The position numbers and the translations under genes are program-made. This document shows positions 594-32,107 of a stretch of 32,107 nucleotides of DNA, in pieces. Position 1 is the stretch's first letter, and each line of letters begins with the position of its first letter. Origin of the DNA: a virus; IMG/VR virus record IMGVR_UViG_3300010153_000047, positions 1-32,107 of that record; one strand, given 5' to 3'. The notes under the pieces were generated by a model, which saw only the letters and a list, made by a program, of their open reading frames with translations, ran no database searches and was not told the origin of the DNA.

Positions 594-1367
594 TTAATCT
601 TCTTTCATGAATGCTGCAAAAGCCTCATCTACATTTGAACCAGTGTCTTTATTGTATTTTTGAGTCTCTGAAGAAGAGGTCTCTGCTGAAGAGTCGGAGG
701 ACAAGTAACCATCCAACAGAGCCTGTATTTCTTCTGGTGTTTTTCGCTCAAATAGGTTGTCAATCACAGGGACCGAATCTATTAATTCCTGACAATTTGC
801 AATCGATTCATCGCATAAAATTGATGGTCTACGACGAGGTTGCAAATTTGTCTTTGGGAAAGAGCCGGGGGTGCCTGGAATAGTGTAAGTTAACTTAATA
901 TCTGTCCCTGTTTCTGCATCTGTGATATCTCCATAATCCGGATCTAACACATAGCCCAATAGGGTTTCATAAGCTGTCTTGCCATAAGCCCAGATTTTTA
1001 CACCATCCGATTCGTTACCTCGAACCAAAACAGGGGAATAATAGCGCTTTCGAGCGAAAAGCTTTTTAGCTTCATTTTTTAAATTTTGATCATCATTTTG
1101 AGTTCCATCTCTCCACAACTTTGATGCAAAGTCGCAGATCGCACATTCACCGTTATCATTGCGTTTATTGCAGTAGATTCCAGGGTTTTTTCCAACATTA
1201 TAGTGGAAATGAAACTCGCGGAATGGATCGCCATCCGCTGTTGGGAGGATTCGAATATTTTGATCTCCCTGCTTTGGCTTCCACATAGTGGAATTTTTAC
1301 CATTTGATTTATTGCCATTTTTAGATGCATTAAGTTTGGCACGCATCGCTTCTAGATTTAAAGACAT
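594..1367 (-). CDS. 32: gp32-like single-stranded DNA-binding protein
   Basis: 257 residues. It matches T4 gp32 in plan. A basic N-terminal segment (residues 9-33) fits the cooperative-binding arm. The zinc site is His53, Cys66, Cys75, Cys78, with spacing H-x12-C-x8-C-x2-C; T4 has H64-x12-C77-x9-C87-x2-C90. The acidic C-terminus ends in Glu-Asp, as in the gp32 tail that recruits replication proteins. In T4 this protein coats single-stranded DNA in replication, recombination and repair. The ATG at 1367 has AAGGAG upstream. It is a one-gene transcript: a near-consensus sigma-70 promoter lies about 100 bp upstream and a strong terminator follows. T4 gp32 has 301 residues, so this is a shorter form. 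Assignment is firm because of the zinc-site spacing. Confidence 0.9.
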   Translation of the reverse strand: MSLNLEAMRAKLNASKNGNKSNGKNSTMWKPKQGDQNIRILPTADGDPFREFHFHYNVGKNPGIYCNKRNDNGECAICDFASKLWRDGTQNDDQNLKNEAKKLFARKRYYSPVLVRGNESDGVKIWAYGKTAYETLLGYVLDPDYGDITDAETGTDIKLTYTIPGTPGSFPKTNLQPRRRPSILCDESIANCQELIDSVPVIDNLFERKTPEEIQALLDGYLSSDSSAETSSSETQKYNKDTGSNVDEAFAAFMKED

Positions 1368-2498: not shown

Positions 2499-2676
2499 TT
2501 TTTGTCCTCTCTAGAAAACCCTCTAGAGCTATAATATATTCTGCTACTTCGAAAAGCTTTTGACAAACATAGTTGAGTTCACTAGGTGTCCCTTCACCCG
2601 TTAATAATGTCAAAAGAATCCTACTTTCCACATCATACATTCTTTTCAATTCTTCAACTGCTTTTTCTCTTTTCAC
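2485..2676 (-). CDS. Small helical protein, 63 residues, unknown
   Basis: It starts with GTG at 2676 with AGGGAGA upstream and overlaps the tubulin-like gene by 23 bp. The sequence looks like two or three amphipathic helices with Leu/Ile at heptad-like spacing and a charged C-terminus. Overlaps on both sides place it inside the polymerase-tubulin operon. Given its tight coupling to the tubulin-like gene, it could be a partner of that protein; this is inference from position only. Confidence 0.65.
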   Translation of the reverse strand: MKREKAVEELKRMYDVESRILLTLLTGEGTPSELNYVCQKLFEVAEYIIALEGFLERTKNDKS

Positions 2677-3526
2677 CTTTATTCTCCCTTGTTTTTTGGC
2701 CTCGATCCTTTACCAACCCTTCCTCTTGAATAAAGTGTGTAAAATGTCTAACCAAATAATTGTTTGGATCTGAGGATTCCCAAATTCCAAAAGAAGTTTC
2801 CCTCTCTTTAGAAATGTTATCTCTAACTATTTGCTGACACGTTGGTAAAATCGTTTCATCATTTGTTAGATCTTCCCCCTCTATATTCATATAGTAGCAA
2901 GATTCGGTGATGTTGTCAAGATTAAATAAGTTTTTCTCTTCAACATCTACAAGGTTTCCAAAACCTAGAGTTGAAATTCTTGAATGATCTTTGGGAACGT
3001 GAACTGCACCATAGTCACTATCAACATTCATGCAGTAATTTAAATTTTGAAAGATGCTGTAAATGAAGTAATTGGCTTTTTCATAATAATCTTTTATCGA
3101 ACCAGTGCCGGCTACTTTTAAGATTTCTTGATTATCTAAAACTATCATCCCCTCAACTGTTCCAGATCTTGCATATTCTTGCAAAACATGGAAATGAACA
3201 CGATGACGAATCCGTTCATCCTTAGATAAAAATTCTAGGTCTGGTTTTATGTAGACAATGGTCATTCTATGGTCCGTAAGAGCCTCTAAAACCCTTAGAG
3301 ATGCACCAGCAATCTTACCACTCCCACAAACAAACAGAAGCCCTTCAGCGTGTGATTTGAGCCCCCTATTCTTTATAGTAACAGGTGAGTCATCATATTC
3401 TTCAACTGTTTGCTTTGCAAGGATGCCATCATCCTCATCTAAAGTGATTATTTTATAATTTTTCGAATGCGATTTAAACAATTTTACAATGTTTTTTCCC
3501 GCCTCTCCTAATCCAACCATTAACAT
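2654..3526 (-). CDS. Divergent tubulin/FtsZ-superfamily protein
   Basis: 290 residues. The N-terminus Met-Val-Gly-Leu-Gly-Glu-Ala-Gly-Lys-Asn matches the FtsZ T1 nucleotide loop. Residues 64-76 (Leu-Phe-Val-Cys-Gly-Ser-Gly-Lys-Ile-Ala-Gly-Ala-Ser) sit where FtsZ has its Gly-rich T4 loop, altered from GGGTGTG. Residues 88-125 follow the FtsZ course 'T-x-V-x-x-x-K-P...R...A/H-x-x-x-L...D/E-x-x-I-V-x-x-N/D-x-x-I'. Residues 157-161 (Asn-Val-Asp-Ser-Asp) sit where FtsZ has the catalytic T7 loop NLDxxD, followed by Leu-Gly-Phe-Gly like FtsZ 'MGIG'. FtsZ, TubZ and PhuZ polymerise with GTP; phage PhuZ positions DNA and capsids in infected cells. This one is short (PhuZ about 315, FtsZ about 380). The ATG at 3526 has AGGAG upstream. 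Altered loops leave GTP use open. Confidence 0.65.
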   Translation of the reverse strand: MLMVGLGEAGKNIVKLFKSHSKNYKIITLDEDDGILAKQTVEEYDDSPVTIKNRGLKSHAEGLLFVCGSGKIAGASLRVLEALTDHRMTIVYIKPDLEFLSKDERIRHRVHFHVLQEYARSGTVEGMIVLDNQEILKVAGTGSIKDYYEKANYFIYSIFQNLNYCMNVDSDYGAVHVPKDHSRISTLGFGNLVDVEEKNLFNLDNITESCYYMNIEGEDLTNDETILPTCQQIVRDNISKERETSFGIWESSDPNNYLVRHFTHFIQEEGLVKDRGQKTRENKGEKRKSS

Positions 3527-3540
3527 TTGCTTCTCCTAAA

Positions 3541-3750
3541 TTATCTTTTGCCTTTAAAAATTTCTATTTCTGCTTCCCACATTGGAGTATCAACTTCCTT
3601 TTTACCAAACCTAACCCAATAAATATAATAGTTTCTCGATATCATTTCAACTTTAGTTACGATGCCGATATTGCCATTTTTCACTCCACTTGTTTGAGAA
3701 CCACATGCAACAACAAGATCTCCGGCCTTAAAATCCGGTAGCCTTACCAT
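3541..3750 (-). CDS. Small KOW/SH3-like protein
   Basis: 69 residues. It has the pattern 'F-K-x-G-D-L-V-V-A...G-x-x-G-I-V-T-K-V' followed by 'Y-x-x-x-W-V-R-F-G', typical of KOW/SH3-type small barrels that bind nucleic acid or protein. Its ATG overlaps the polymerase stop by 7 bp (ATGGTAA), so it is translationally coupled to the polymerase. A polymerase accessory role is possible by position. No exact family is named with confidence. Confidence 0.7.
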   Translation of the reverse strand: MVRLPDFKAGDLVVACGSQTSGVKNGNIGIVTKVEMISRNYYIYWVRFGKKEVDTPMWEAEIEIFKGKR

Positions 3751-4937
3751 TCAAACTCCCTCATGTTTCCGAGATTTCTCCCCATCGAAACGTTTACTTT
3801 AAATCTTCCCAATCTTGTTTTTTCAAAAATCTCCTTAAGTTGTGGGATCAAGCTTCTGTCGTCTCTGTGTAAATCAATGATAACGCTATCGTGAACAACA
3901 GCTGCGACATGGGATTGAGTTCCCCTAAGAAATTTTGAAATTCTATTAAACCGGTCGAGGGTGTTGTCTGAGGATGAGGATTGGAGAAGATAATTGAGTG
4001 CTTTACTATAGGGAGTAGCAATTGACCTTCCAAATGGGGTCTGTATAACCTCTTGCTCGGGGTCGTAAAATCTTTCCAATAAAATCTCTCTGTCGTAATA
4101 ATCGGATTTAATGGCTGTTGACTCTTGATTGTAGAGCCAAGCAAATATTTTTTGTTTTGCTTTGTCTCTTTGCATTTCTTTTTTAAATACGTTTTTGATA
4201 TTCCATTCATGGATATCCTCCTCAGGTTGTTTGTGCCCTTGTAGGGCCAAAAGTGTTCTAATTTCTGCAGCATTAAAGTCAAGCTCCAAAAAAACATCAT
4301 TTGTGGGCTTTACGAACTGTTTGAGTTCTTTTTTTAAATTTAAAACCGGGAATGACTCTCTTCTTGTTGTAAGGCGACCCGTAACGGTTCCAAAAAGATT
4401 ATAATCAATGTAAGGCGTCTTGTCACCAAACTTTGCATAGAGATGCTTTGCCTTGACATCATTTTCCGCAGCATTATAGAGACCTAGGGAATCCAAAGCC
4501 ACACGGTGCGTTGCAAGTTCTCGTAAACTTTCATGAGTTTCTTTGAGGAAATGGTAATTTTCTGGTTTTTCAATGTTTTCAAATACCCATTGAGTTATTT
4601 CGTTCTTACAATCATAATAATGCTGCAAATGCTTTTGGGGAACGAGATCAAAAAAGCAAACATCCGTTAATTGAATCTTCGCTGTCCTAAAAGCTTGGAA
4701 GTGACTCTTCATGAGTCCTTGAGCAGATGCCCAGCGGTCTTGCAGGTGTGATGGACAGACGTCATCAATAGACTGACCAGAAACCCATAATTTGGCATAA
4801 TCAATGTCCCTACCTGTCAAGTGTGAGGACCAACTCCATGTTTTAGATAGTCCATCAGGGATTCGACCATAAATAAACCTGTTTGCCAAATAGATACCGG
4901 CGCAATCTAATTTGCTGTCCATTAATTGAAAAATCAT
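3744..4937 (-). CDS. Family A DNA polymerase, polymerase domain only
   Basis: 397 residues, the size of the polymerase domain of Pol I without a 3'-5' exonuclease. Motifs in order: 'GTVTGRL' (183-189); motif A with catalytic Asp220 in Leu-Glu-Leu-Asp-Phe-Asn-Ala-Ala-Glu-Ile-Arg; motif B Arg257-Lys261-Phe265-Tyr269 at the exact +4 spacing of Pol I R754/K758/F762/Y766; 'TPFGR' (300-304); and motif C Val-His349-Asp350-Ser. The usual Glu after His-Asp is Ser here and the Gly after the motif B Tyr is Asn. T4 phages normally carry a family B polymerase; Rhodothermus phage RM378 has a family A enzyme with the exonuclease on a separate gene. No exonuclease gene is in this window. ATG 4937 follows AGGAGG; a sigma-70 promoter lies upstream. 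It heads the operon down to 2319. Confidence 0.9.
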   Translation of the reverse strand: MIFQLMDSKLDCAGIYLANRFIYGRIPDGLSKTWSWSSHLTGRDIDYAKLWVSGQSIDDVCPSHLQDRWASAQGLMKSHFQAFRTAKIQLTDVCFFDLVPQKHLQHYYDCKNEITQWVFENIEKPENYHFLKETHESLRELATHRVALDSLGLYNAAENDVKAKHLYAKFGDKTPYIDYNLFGTVTGRLTTRRESFPVLNLKKELKQFVKPTNDVFLELDFNAAEIRTLLALQGHKQPEEDIHEWNIKNVFKKEMQRDKAKQKIFAWLYNQESTAIKSDYYDREILLERFYDPEQEVIQTPFGRSIATPYSKALNYLLQSSSSDNTLDRFNRISKFLRGTQSHVAAVVHDSVIIDLHRDDRSLIPQLKEIFEKTRLGRFKVNVSMGRNLGNMREFEW

Positions 4938-4987: not shown

Positions 4988-5016
4988 AAGATAACACATT
5001 GAAGGCTCCGTGTCAA
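4988..5016 (-). promoter_or_regulatory. Sigma-70 promoter for polymerase operon
   Basis: Minus strand TTGACA (5011-5016), 17 bp, TATCTT (4988-4993), with TGTGT before the -10. The -35 box contains the TGA stop codon of the upstream structural gene, so the replication operon starts right at the end of the late region. Confidence 0.85.
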
Positions 5017-6185
5017 GTATTGTTGGCTCTTTTTTCAAAATAAGTTAGGGAGCCATCCTTTTGATTATAGAGTGCTCTGAACTGATCTTCTATGTAAATC
5101 ATTGCCTTATTTTGATCGTGTTTTCCAATTCTAACAGCAGTTTTTTGGATGAGACCCAAAGCAGCGGAATCAAAGGCTGAATCTTCAAAAAAGTTTTTCA
5201 TATTTATATATAATATTAATAATTTATTATAATCTATTGAAGATTTGTTTTTAATATTAACAATAGAAGAGACTGTTTTATTATTACATGCTTTATAATA
5301 AGTATTGTAAGGATTTAAACTAACATAAGAGTTGTAAGTCTGTAGTAATAGCTTTTCCAACAAATCTAAATCTTTAAAGATTGTTTTTTCATATTGCTTC
5401 TCAAAGATGGATGAAACCGTCGGTAAAAGAAGTCTCTTTCTATATTCTATTGTAACTGGTGATGCAACATCTACAACCAAAACACCAGGATTCTGAAGGT
5501 TTACATGAAATCCATATTGCTTTGCTAAGTTCAAATAGTAATTAAATGCTGGGGAATCGAACATTTTAACTCTCTTTTCTATGTCGTTTGAAAAACTAAT
5601 TCCCCCAATGTCTATCGCCATACCTGTCATAAACAGGTTTGAGTTTTTAGATTTCATAAAATCAGATAATGTAAGGGTCTCGGAATTATCTGAATTTAGA
5701 TAGAATTCCATAAACACATTTACAAAGTCATCAAAGTTGTTAACTAACTTCTTGTTTTGTAAAACAAAATTGTTCAAAACCCTACTCATGCTACTCTTTG
5801 AGACTATGAGAAACTCATCCATTGGACTTTTATAGGAGTTTTTAATAGTTAAAGATGATAAGACAGGATCATCTACAGGAATGACGCCCATTCTACATGC
5901 CTTTGCAAAATGAAGCTCTAAGTCTTTAAATTGCTCTGCGGCGAAGTTTAGGGCTAGGTGAGTTCCAACATCTTCTGGAGAAGATGTTATAATTGGACTC
6001 AAGAATTCCTCTCTCACAATAACTGGTTCAATCATCCTATTGACTCTGCCATAAAAGGTTCTCTCAGCAAAATTAAAATCTGTGACCTGTTTGGGATCAT
6101 CTTTGAATGCATTTGCTTGATAGTTTGCTCTTTCAAACGCTAAACGTTTAGTTTTTAAGTTGTTTTTTCCATTAAATTTAGTCAT
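5013..6185 (-). CDS. Unknown protein at end of baseplate operon, probably virion-associated
   Basis: 390 residues, AT-rich, no signal peptide or transmembrane segment. It begins 'FAERTFYGRVNR' style at about residues 38-50 and looks alpha/beta. No enzyme motif is seen and the family is not recognised. Start and stop signals overlap with the hub-like gene as TAATG, so it is translated by reinitiation in step with that baseplate protein. That coupling argues for a baseplate or tail-tip partner. It is the last gene of the long unit that begins at the tape measure. Confidence 0.7.
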   Translation of the reverse strand: MTKFNGKNNLKTKRLAFERANYQANAFKDDPKQVTDFNFAERTFYGRVNRMIEPVIVREEFLSPIITSSPEDVGTHLALNFAAEQFKDLELHFAKACRMGVIPVDDPVLSSLTIKNSYKSPMDEFLIVSKSSMSRVLNNFVLQNKKLVNNFDDFVNVFMEFYLNSDNSETLTLSDFMKSKNSNLFMTGMAIDIGGISFSNDIEKRVKMFDSPAFNYYLNLAKQYGFHVNLQNPGVLVVDVASPVTIEYRKRLLLPTVSSIFEKQYEKTIFKDLDLLEKLLLQTYNSYVSLNPYNTYYKACNNKTVSSIVNIKNKSSIDYNKLLILYINMKNFFEDSAFDSAALGLIQKTAVRIGKHDQNKAMIYIEDQFRALYNQKDGSLTYFEKRANNT

Positions 6186-29860: not shown

Positions 29861-32107
29861 TTACATCAAGTACATAACTCCGCCTTTCTTAATGAACATG
29901 ACAGATGCTCCACCGTGAAGAGTGATAGAACCATCAGCTTCTCCGTCGATAGATTCACCAACGCCAGCGTTGAAAGTAACAGATGAAGAACCTTCAGCAA
30001 CCTTAACTCTGATGTAATGCTCTTCAGACATCATTGGCATAGTGAATGCCTTTGGTGCAGCAGCGTTTACAATGTAGTGAGTTGCAGCAGGTGCCATTCC
30101 TGGAGATGTTTCAGTCAACAATTCAACTTTAACAGAACCAGCGTTGATAAGGTCAACATCACCTTGAAGTGCATTATCACCAGCCAAACGATCAGCGTTT
30201 GCTTGAGCAATAGCAGCATCAGCATCAGCTTCATTTTGATCTACGTCCGATTGGATAGCACCACGAGCGCCAGCAGCAGCTACGAAATCAGCATTTGTTG
30301 CAGCAACTTCAGCAGCTAAAGCGTTAGTTAAAACAAGCTCAGCAGCTTCAGCACGAACTTTCTCAGCTAAGATAGCAGCATCAGCATCAGCTTCGTTTGC
30401 ATCTACATCAGCTTGAAGAGCAGCAATAGCAGCGTCAGCATCAGCTTCATTCTGATCTACATCAGCTTGAATAGCACCACGAGCTCCAGCATTGAAAGTA
30501 GCAGCAGCGGCAGCAGCAGCGATTCTTGCAGCTTCTTCTGTAGAAACAGAAGCGGAAAGAACAGCTTCAGCGGCGGTTGCACGAGCTTCTTCATCATCAA
30601 TAGCAGTTTGAAGAACAACATCAGCAGCATCTGCATCTGATTCGTTACCATCAACATCAGCTTGAAGGGCAATAATTTTGTCCTCAAGTTTACCAAGGGT
30701 ATCATAACCAGCAGCAGCGTCACCCTTAAGGGCAGCATCAGCAGCAGCAAATTCAGAGCGGATAGCACCACGATCAGTTGCAGCAGCAGTGAAGTCAGCC
30801 AACATTGATCCAGCGAAGTTAGCATCATCAGCAATAGATGCAGCCAATTCATTCAAAGTGTCCAATGCAGCTGGAGCACCATCAACAAGATTGGTAACAG
30901 CAGTAGCGATGTCAGCAGCCATTTTGGTCTCAAGAGAAGATTGAAGAGCAGTATCAGCAGCTTTATATGCAGAATCAAGAGCAGAAATTGCAGCAGTTCT
31001 AGCAGCAATTTCACCGTCAATCTTAGTATCTAATGCACCTTCAGCACTTTCAGCGCGACCTTTTTCAGTCACAACAGCAGCAGCATTTACAGCTTCAGCA
31101 GCACCAGCACGAGCAGCTTCGGCAGCAATAGCAGCGTCAGCGTCAGATTCATTTTGGTCAACATCAGCTTGAACACCTGCAACAGCAGCTAACATAGCTG
31201 TGTTTTCAGCAGTGATTGCAACACCACGAGCAGTAGCTTCTGCAGCAATAGCAGCAGCGTTTGCTTGTTCAGCAGCACGAGCTGTAGAGGCTTCAGCAAC
31301 CAAAGCAGCGTCGTTAGATGTTTCGTAAGATGAAAGATCAGATGCAACAGCAGCAATAGCAGCATCAGCATCAGCTTCGTTTTGGTCTACATCAGCTTGA
31401 ATTGCATTTCTTGCAAGAAGAGCAGCAGCTTCGTTAGCATCAACATCAGCTTGGATAACACCACGAGCAGTAGCAGAAACTCCAGCTTCGTGTGTATCAG
31501 CAGCCATTCTCTGTGCGGTTTCAGTAGCTAAAGCATTTGCTTGAGCAGTATCACCAGCAACACGAAGACCAGCTTCAGCAGCTACGTCAGCGTCAATTTC
31601 GTCTTGAAGAACAACTTTTTGTGCAGCCAAAGCAGAAATTCTTGCAGCTTCTTCTGCAGAAATAGCAGCAGCGTTTGCAGCTTCTGCAGCACGAGCAGTA
31701 GTAGCCTCAGATGCTAAGTCAGTAGCCAATTGAGTATCAGCAGCTGCACGAGCAGTAGCTTCAGCAGTATCAGCAGCACCGCGAGCGGTAGATTCAGCAG
31801 CAAGGTTATTAGTTAAGACTAACTCAGCAGCACGAGCAGCAGTAGCTTCGTTAGCGATTGCTGTTGCATTTGCAGCTTCAGCAGTCATTGCACGAGATTT
31901 TTCACCAGCCAAAGCTACAGCAGCAGAACCAGAGTTTGCAACGATAGATGTTGAAAGGGCAGAATCAGCAGCAGCAAATTCAGAACGAACAGCGCCACGG
32001 TCAGTAGCAGCATTAGCCATTTGTGTTGCAATTGAGTTGTGATAATCAGCATCATCACCAAGAGCAGCAGCTAATTCGTTAAGAGTATCAAGAGTTGCAG
32101 GAGCAGC
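29861..32107 (-). CDS. Ala-rich coiled-coil tail fibre protein (5' end off window)
   Basis: 749 codons are visible. The frame is open through the right edge, in frame from 32107, so the Met at 32020 is internal. Almost the whole visible part is Ala/Glu/Asp/Arg-rich and predicted helical/coiled-coil. Two repeat types occur: a short unit 'Q-A-D-V-D-Q-N-E-A-D-A-D-A-A' in seven copies, and a longer one 'A-P-A-x-L-D-T-L-N-E-L-A-A' plus 'A-T-D-R-G-A-I-R-S-E-F-A-A-A-D' in two copies (at the right edge and at about 30725-30880). The last 90 residues are a beta domain of the common fibre-tip kind ('Y-I-V-N...F-T-M-P', 'G-E-S-I-D-G-E', 'S-I-T-L-H-G-G-A-S-V'). It is likely a trimeric fibre or whisker. 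The unseen N-terminus would hold the attachment domain. Confidence 0.85.
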   Translation of the reverse strand, partial: AAPATLDTLNELAAALGDDADYHNSIATQMANAATDRGAVRSEFAAADSALSTSIVANSGSAAVALAGEKSRAMTAEAANATAIANEATAARAAELVLTNNLAAESTARGAADTAEATARAAADTQLATDLASEATTARAAEAANAAAISAEEAARISALAAQKVVLQDEIDADVAAEAGLRVAGDTAQANALATETAQRMAADTHEAGVSATARGVIQADVDANEAAALLARNAIQADVDQNEADADAAIAAVASDLSSYETSNDAALVAEASTARAAEQANAAAIAAEATARGVAITAENTAMLAAVAGVQADVDQNESDADAAIAAEAARAGAAEAVNAAAVVTEKGRAESAEGALDTKIDGEIAARTAAISALDSAYKAADTALQSSLETKMAADIATAVTNLVDGAPAALDTLNELAASIADDANFAGSMLADFTAAATDRGAIRSEFAAADAALKGDAAAGYDTLGKLEDKIIALQADVDGNESDADAADVVLQTAIDDEEARATAAEAVLSASVSTEEAARIAAAAAAATFNAGARGAIQADVDQNEADADAAIAALQADVDANEADADAAILAEKVRAEAAELVLTNALAAEVAATNADFVAAAGARGAIQSDVDQNEADADAAIAQANADRLAGDNALQGDVDLINAGSVKVELLTETSPGMAPAATHYIVNAAAPKAFTMPMMSEEHYIRVKVAEGSSSVTFNAGVGESIDGEADGSITLHGGASVMFIKKGGVMYLM
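30200..31480 (-). repeat. Internal repeats encoding the Q-A-D-V-D-x-N-E-A-D-A-D unit
   Basis: Near-identical DNA, about 35-45 bp, recurs at about 30205-30255, 30375-30415, 30427-30480, 30625-30670, 31127-31175, 31355-31405 and, more diverged, about 31425-31460. Each encodes a Gln-Ala-Asp-Val-Asp-x-Asn-Glu unit of the fibre. DNA similarity suggests recent duplication or recombination in the fibre stalk. Confidence 0.75.

Follow-up and report, generated by a model that had tools for sequence, protein, structure and literature searches.

The stretch of DNA analysed here (the window) comprises the 32,107 nucleotides of the viral record IMGVR_UViG_3300010153_000047. Its minus strand carries at positions 2654..3526 an open reading frame with an ATG start, encoding a protein of 290 amino acids that was assigned to the tubulin/FtsZ superfamily on the basis of an AlphaFold2 model and Foldseek searches. 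Direct reading of the sequence revealed a Shine-Dalgarno element (AGGAG; 3533..3537, minus strand) located 6 nt 5′ of the ATG. The upstream partner of the gene is a short family-A DNA polymerase of 397 aa (3744..4937, minus strand; phrog_17, E 5.4e-22), whose counterpart in the relative L095 matches Pfam DNA_pol_A, and the downstream partner is a gp32-like ssDNA-binding protein (SSB; 594..1367, minus strand; Pfam gp32, E 3e-14; phrog_1192, E 2e-31). An earlier note, made from the sequence alone, had proposed a tubulin/FtsZ-like gene at 2654-3526 inside a DNA polymerase operon; the position proved exact, on the minus strand, and so did the placement, the flanking genes being those for the DNA polymerase and the SSB.

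Several other features of the locus were observed. A protein of 69 aa is encoded between the polymerase and the tubulin-like gene (3541..3750, minus strand), with a match to Pfam NifZ (E 2.4e-5) below the curated cut-off; this NifZ/SH3-like protein, identified only at sub-threshold level, was present in 28/75 loci, and different small ORFs were found at that place in other members. The PHROG match of the polymerase begins at residue 179 and no exonuclease domain was detected, so that the N-terminal half of this protein remains without assignment. Just upstream of the polymerase, a 390-aa orphan (5013-6185, minus strand) has no Pfam or PHROG match, yet it was found in 73 of the 75 loci anchored on the tubulin-like gene.

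Comparison of the tubulin-like gene with four relatives revealed a divergence of 0.51-0.56 at the third codon position and of 0.16-0.27 at positions 1 and 2. Since the third-position divergence is far above that of the other two, these data indicate that the gene is genuine and that purifying selection acts on it, and a spurious ORF was ruled out by this codon-position test together with the Shine-Dalgarno element and the synteny described below. The last residues of the window protein (271-290; 2657..2716, minus strand) form a disordered basic tail, with pLDDT values below 50, that is specific to the window member; the C-terminus of most relatives lies at about residue 268-275.

A first scan of IMG/VR identified four relatives with 66-69% identity, and an alignment-based scan raised this number to 37. 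The use of the adjoining polymerase as bait led to far more distant tubulin-like members at the same locus, and a final alignment scan of IMG/VR gave at least 598 confirmed viral-contig loci. Removal of near-duplicates left 81 representatives (set A3), with pairwise identities of 19-82% and a median of 34%. This diversity, along with the occurrence of the gene at the same locus everywhere, rules out a recent acquisition by one phage. As shown by this analysis, seven long contigs of 120-192 kb have one copy of the gene each; contig G001 gave one further sub-significant match, with stops. In locus L172 (1765-2676) the gene appears as two ORFs, due to a stop, a frameshift or a sequencing error. 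No match was obtained by tblastn with two family members among GenBank phages, nor in one-per-species prokaryote genomes, the latter being a weak negative that rests on a single exact peptide pattern. The bacterial viruses that carry the family form a group that is uncultivated and has gone unrecognised, although it is common.

Sequence searches detect almost nothing in this family, which is why usual annotation misses it. The window protein had no significant match in Pfam, PHROGs or PADLOC, and the best score against Pfam Tubulin (PF00091), 14.4 bits in a relative, did not reach the curated cut-off of 33. The best sequence-based match was that of NCBIfam TIGR00065 (ftsZ) to residues 124-164 (E 0.0024), the same segment to which FtsZ chains from the PDB align, with a best phmmer E of 0.3, and the T1 loop was matched by archaeal and Asgard tubulins in the PDB sequence search. 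It has to be noted that the PDB sequence searches were all sub-threshold, and that the near-clade profile alone matched an unrelated reductase at 0.029. The weak signals nevertheless follow one another along the chain as they do in FtsZ: in hhalign, family residues 2-162 aligned in order with residues 13-196 of Escherichia coli FtsZ (P 4.9e-4), and the alignment with PhuZ gave P 5.3e-4. As a yardstick, FtsZ against PhuZ gave P = 1.1e-5; the controls against the family gave 0.13 for shikimate dehydrogenase and 1.8e-3 for TrkA_N, the latter out of register.

The evidence for the fold came from predicted structures. The AlphaFold2 model of the window protein, built from 56 sequences, reached a pLDDT of 90.7 and a pTM of 0.87. 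Foldseek searches with this model against the PDB returned 449 matches at E <= 0.001, the best 50 of which were all FtsZ or TubZ, with a probability of 1.00 for the top matches, a best E of 1.7e-10 and TM values of 0.55-0.67 by query length. To avoid dependence on the clade of the window protein, a second model was built for L095, a relative with 28% identity to it, from 49 sequences that are each no more than 38% identical to the window protein. This model (pLDDT 95.4, pTM 0.92) had FtsZ as its best match, with CetZ and TubZ also among the top 50 (E values down to 4.6e-13, TM 0.63-0.73). Among predicted viral structures the closest was a phage protein annotated as FtsZ (E 6.4e-11, 12% identity), and no close member of the family appeared among the matches listed there.

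In both models a Rossmann-like GTPase domain, a central helix H7 and a C-terminal activation domain were present, as required for the tubulin fold. These computations show the fold at the level of prediction, and we have little doubt that the protein has the complete two-domain tubulin/FtsZ architecture. The main claim of the earlier note, a divergent tubulin/FtsZ-like gene, was therefore upheld by two models matching FtsZ, TubZ and CetZ across both domains. That note would have been refuted by a predicted structure without the tubulin nucleotide domain, and the opposite was found with AlphaFold and Foldseek, or by a confident match to a different Rossmann-type family, none of which appeared in Pfam or in the Foldseek top 50.

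Conservation of the residues expected to contact guanine nucleotide was then evident in the alignment of the 81 homologues. The T1 phosphate loop at residues 5-10 (GLGEAG, that is, G5-L-G7-E-A-G10; 3497..3514, minus strand) aligns with GVGGGGGN of FtsZ, and its GxGxxG pattern is kept in 78/81. The T6 asparagine N132 (3131..3133, minus strand), conserved in 80/81, aligns with N165 of E. coli FtsZ, a residue in contact with guanine (PMC8456036). The H7 residues Y148 and N152 (3071..3085, minus strand) align with FtsZ F182 and N186, position 148 being aromatic in 79/81 and position 152 Asn or Asp in 80/81. F182 and N186 (Asp187 in many FtsZs) touch the base in FtsZ/tubulin structures. Conservation of these contacts is shown by computation; that the protein binds GTP or GDP is a likely inference from it, without biochemistry.

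On the other hand, the same alignment and models show the loss or reduction of the T3/H3, T4, T7 and H8 features. The T4 loop at residues 67-75 (CGSGKIAGA, with G68-S-G-K-x-A-G74-A; 3302..3328, minus strand) is degenerate: the tubulin signature [SAG]GGTG[SA]G was found in 0/81 homologues, and its remnants are a GxGxxxG pattern in 55/81 and G68 in 80/81. A T7-like stretch, N167-V-D-S-D171 (3014..3028, minus strand), does not preserve the catalytic motif, NxDxxD being absent from all 81 and the Asp pair at this position not being conserved. An acid at position 171 occurs in 27/32 near members and 4/49 far ones, and at position 169 in 31/49 far members; since 59/81 keep an acidic residue at 169 or 171, some GTP hydrolysis is possible. 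The S2-S4 segment carrying T3/H3 falls short of its FtsZ counterpart by about 12-20 residues, and the helix at the FtsZ H8 position is absent from both models according to DSSP. T2 and T3 touch the beta- and gamma-phosphates; T7 sets off hydrolysis in the subunit that follows (PMC8456036). Because of these losses we predict weak or no GTP hydrolysis and no canonical protofilament, an inference from lost motifs and from monomer models, which are also the only basis for the loss of the canonical interface.

Most of the motifs read by the earlier note were confirmed: the T1-like glycine loop at the N-terminus, the degenerate Gly-rich loop at 67-75, the run with Lys-Pro and Arg at 90-125 (K94-P95 followed by an Arg-rich stretch) and Leu-Gly-Phe-Gly (at L187-G-F-G) after the Asn-x-Asp-x-Asp. 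This last motif is present at residues 167-171, not at 157-161 as stated there, and is not conserved. That the motifs go beyond chance is supported by the diverse homologues, of which 78/81 keep T1 and 80/81 the T6 Asn. The suggestion that GTP hydrolysis is altered or lost was strengthened by the missing T4 signature, T7 motif, T3/H3 and H8, activity and polymerisation not having been measured.

Peculiar to the family is the signature LQEYARSG at residues 115-122, at the end of helix H5 (3161..3184, minus strand). Q116 and R120 are invariant in 81/81 members, and S121 and G122 are kept in at least 79/81. In the absence of binding data, we infer that this segment, more than any other, may serve to bind a partner.

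A survey of the gene neighbourhood in related phages, which the earlier note had suggested, revealed the polymerase-SSB flanks in every informative relative. The polymerase was upstream of the tubulin-like gene in 75/75 informative loci and the gp32-like SSB downstream in 68/68, these counts covering only loci that were fetched by the tubulin-like gene and were long enough to judge. Conversely, starting from the polymerase side, the tubulin-like gene was present in 70/70. Related contigs are among those counted, and the loci do not represent independent events. Among distant members the start of the tubulin-like gene overlaps the polymerase stop (by 8 nt in L095; as ATGA in L114), and RecA, a 5′-3′ exonuclease and a DnaB-type helicase come next in relatives. 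The fixed position between polymerase and SSB is thus shown by computation. Some members carry insertions between the tubulin-like gene and the SSB: a DNA methylase (N6_N4_Mtase) in L179 (8837-9751) and, in L164 (9318-10187), a gene that by its look only is probably another methylase.

Regarding the type of phage, a contractile tail is indicated by the virion genes, which include a tail sheath (phrog_23) and a major head protein (phrog_138). The polymerase-SSB-RecA-exonuclease order is that of Immutovirus and of Spounavirinae/SPO1-like phages, which share the family-A polymerase, small ORFs, SSB, RecA and 5′-3′ exonuclease in the same order but have no tubulin-like gene in the replication block. 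The term T4-type phage, used in the earlier note, holds at most for the virion, T4 having a polymerase of family B, and it should be restricted to the virion or dropped because of the family-A polymerase and the SPO1-like/Immutovirus-like replication block. No detectable homologue was found around the polymerase and SSB of Immutovirus, Microcystis phage Mel-JY01, Lysinibacillus LysYB1 or a 484-kb uncultured phage, indicating that this polymerase type as such needs no tubulin-like protein. A 428-aa SSB neighbour in Mel-JY01 (L122:10598-11884) was considered as a hidden homologue and rejected on its match to S-adenosylmethionine lyase (E 4.4e-10). In the 484-kb phage (LR756508.1), an ORF of 360 aa (L350:12920-13999) occupies the place of the tubulin-like gene between a related polymerase and the SSB; at sequence level only, it matched neither Pfam nor the family profile. 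At the far end of the window (29861-32107, minus strand), a long protein rich in Ala, Asp and Glu and containing many degenerate repeats (QADVDQNEADADAAIA) runs off the contig; its sequence has the look of a fibre protein or a structural repeat protein.

The fixed place between polymerase and SSB suggests that a cytoskeletal fold has joined the DNA-copying machinery of these viruses. Our main reading, to which we give a probability of roughly 0.5, is that the protein is a minimal, divergent and dedicated part of the phage DNA-replication machinery. In this view, GTP or GDP would be bound via T1, T6 and H7, and hydrolysis would be slow or absent because the T7 motif, supplied in FtsZ by the next subunit, is missing. 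The protein would associate with the polymerase, or with itself via a non-canonical face, the near-invariant LQEYARSG being the proposed binding site, and this association would tether or organise, at replication sites, the polymerase and the DNA coated with SSB. The separate parts deserve different weight. We lean towards some role in replication, by inference; whether the protein physically partners the polymerase or serves as its scaffold could go either way, this being inferred from linkage only. A bolder version, in which it is a stoichiometric, GTP-switched subunit of the polymerase complex (a clamp, tether or scaffold) that makes no microtubule-like filaments, remains tentative and we incline against it; to our knowledge, the tubulin superfamily offers no precedent for a GTP-switched DNA polymerase subunit. 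All of this is limited by the lack of biochemistry, and gene order is evidence of linkage, not of contact.

The rival explanation that remains possible is that the protein forms dynamic or static filaments that position phage DNA or capsids, like PhuZ and TubZ. It is supported by the common fold and the retained guanine-binding residues, and it is still alive in spite of the predicted loss of hydrolysis, since PhuZ with its catalytic Asp mutated still polymerises with GTP (PMC4244570). The PhuZ gene of phiKZ also lies about 7.7 kb from the phiKZ DNA polymerase gene. Against filaments, both models show T3/H3 and H8, which belong to the canonical longitudinal interface, in reduced form or not at all, there is no conserved C-terminal tail or H11-like extension, and no chimallin was matched in the seven long contigs with phiKZ gp54 as query, in a search without positive control. 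We regard as unlikely that the protein is purely an accessory of the polymerase, a processivity or regulatory subunit for which the tubulin fold was re-employed without any polymerisation. Strict adjacency, the stop/start overlap with the polymerase in distant members, a polymerase of only about 397 aa and the lack of a match to the T4-type clamp (PF02916) in the seven long contigs, again without a true positive control, are in its favour, but the conserved guanine contacts imply nucleotide control.

Less likely still is a mimic of host FtsZ that would block host cell division by capping or co-assembly. Phages often target FtsZ, and FtsZ is the nearest structural match; however, one would not expect a host-takeover gene to keep its place between polymerase and SSB in every relative across 19-82% pairwise identity, and the interface elements needed for docking onto FtsZ are degenerate. 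Membership of another Rossmann-type nucleotide-binding family (dehydrogenase, TrkA_N) is all but excluded: sub-threshold Pfam matches to Sacchrp_dh_NADP and TrkA_N (E 0.05-0.16) point to it, but the topology fits FtsZ over both domains in full, with H7 and the C-terminal sheet, the top 50 of either model contain no other folds and the TrkA_N profile is out of register. An NAD Rossmann enzyme was consequently rejected on fold and register.

A large group of uncultivated phages thus has among its core genes a hidden tubulin, locked to replication genes in every genome examined. If binding of GTP and of the polymerase proved true, the tubulin fold would be linked directly to DNA replication. The family also constitutes a natural experiment on what this fold does after loss of its catalytic and filament-forming parts.

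Comparison with known systems places the family as follows. With FtsZ it shares the two-domain fold with H7, the T1 glycine loop, the T6 Asn and the H7 aromatic and Asn/Asp residues; it differs in lacking GGGTGTG, the T7 NxDxxD and H8, in the T3/H3 region shorter by about 12-20 residues, in having no linker with an FtsA/ZipA peptide, in its identity of only 10-15% and in its location in a phage replication block. PhuZ of the phiKZ-like Chimalliviridae is likewise a phage-encoded superfamily protein of about 300 aa, but the family profile scores only 1.5 bits (E 4.8) against phiKZ PhuZ, on which grounds orthology was rejected, and the family has no conserved counterpart of the C-terminal extension or tail through which PhuZ makes filament contacts. 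TubZ of Bacillus plasmids and phages agrees in fold, with a TM of about 0.6-0.7 to the query, but, in contrast to TubZ, the tubulin-like protein has no extended C-terminal helix and tail and its catalytic loop is not conserved; its neighbours in all informative loci are polymerase and SSB rather than a TubR/tubC operon, although TubR and centromere repeats were not searched by name.

A 2025 survey, which used profiles at > 30 bits, reported that phage tubulins distinguish Chimalliviridae, with a handful elsewhere (PMC11835377); at about 14 bits at most against the Pfam tubulin model, the present family is below such detection limits. The earlier note considered a tubulin co-transcribed with a polymerase in a T4-type phage to be new to its author's knowledge: PhuZ and TubZ are known, and no tubulin beside a family-A polymerase was found in the open-access literature searched. 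That FtsZ-tubulin families can diverge and take on unusual roles has a precedent in FtsZl-1 and FtsZl-2 (Makarova and Koonin 2010, PMC2875224); these are cellular and implicated in membrane remodelling, whereas the gene described here is viral and belongs to a replication operon. It represents a new divergent family within the known tubulin/FtsZ superfamily, in a new genomic setting and probably with a new role.
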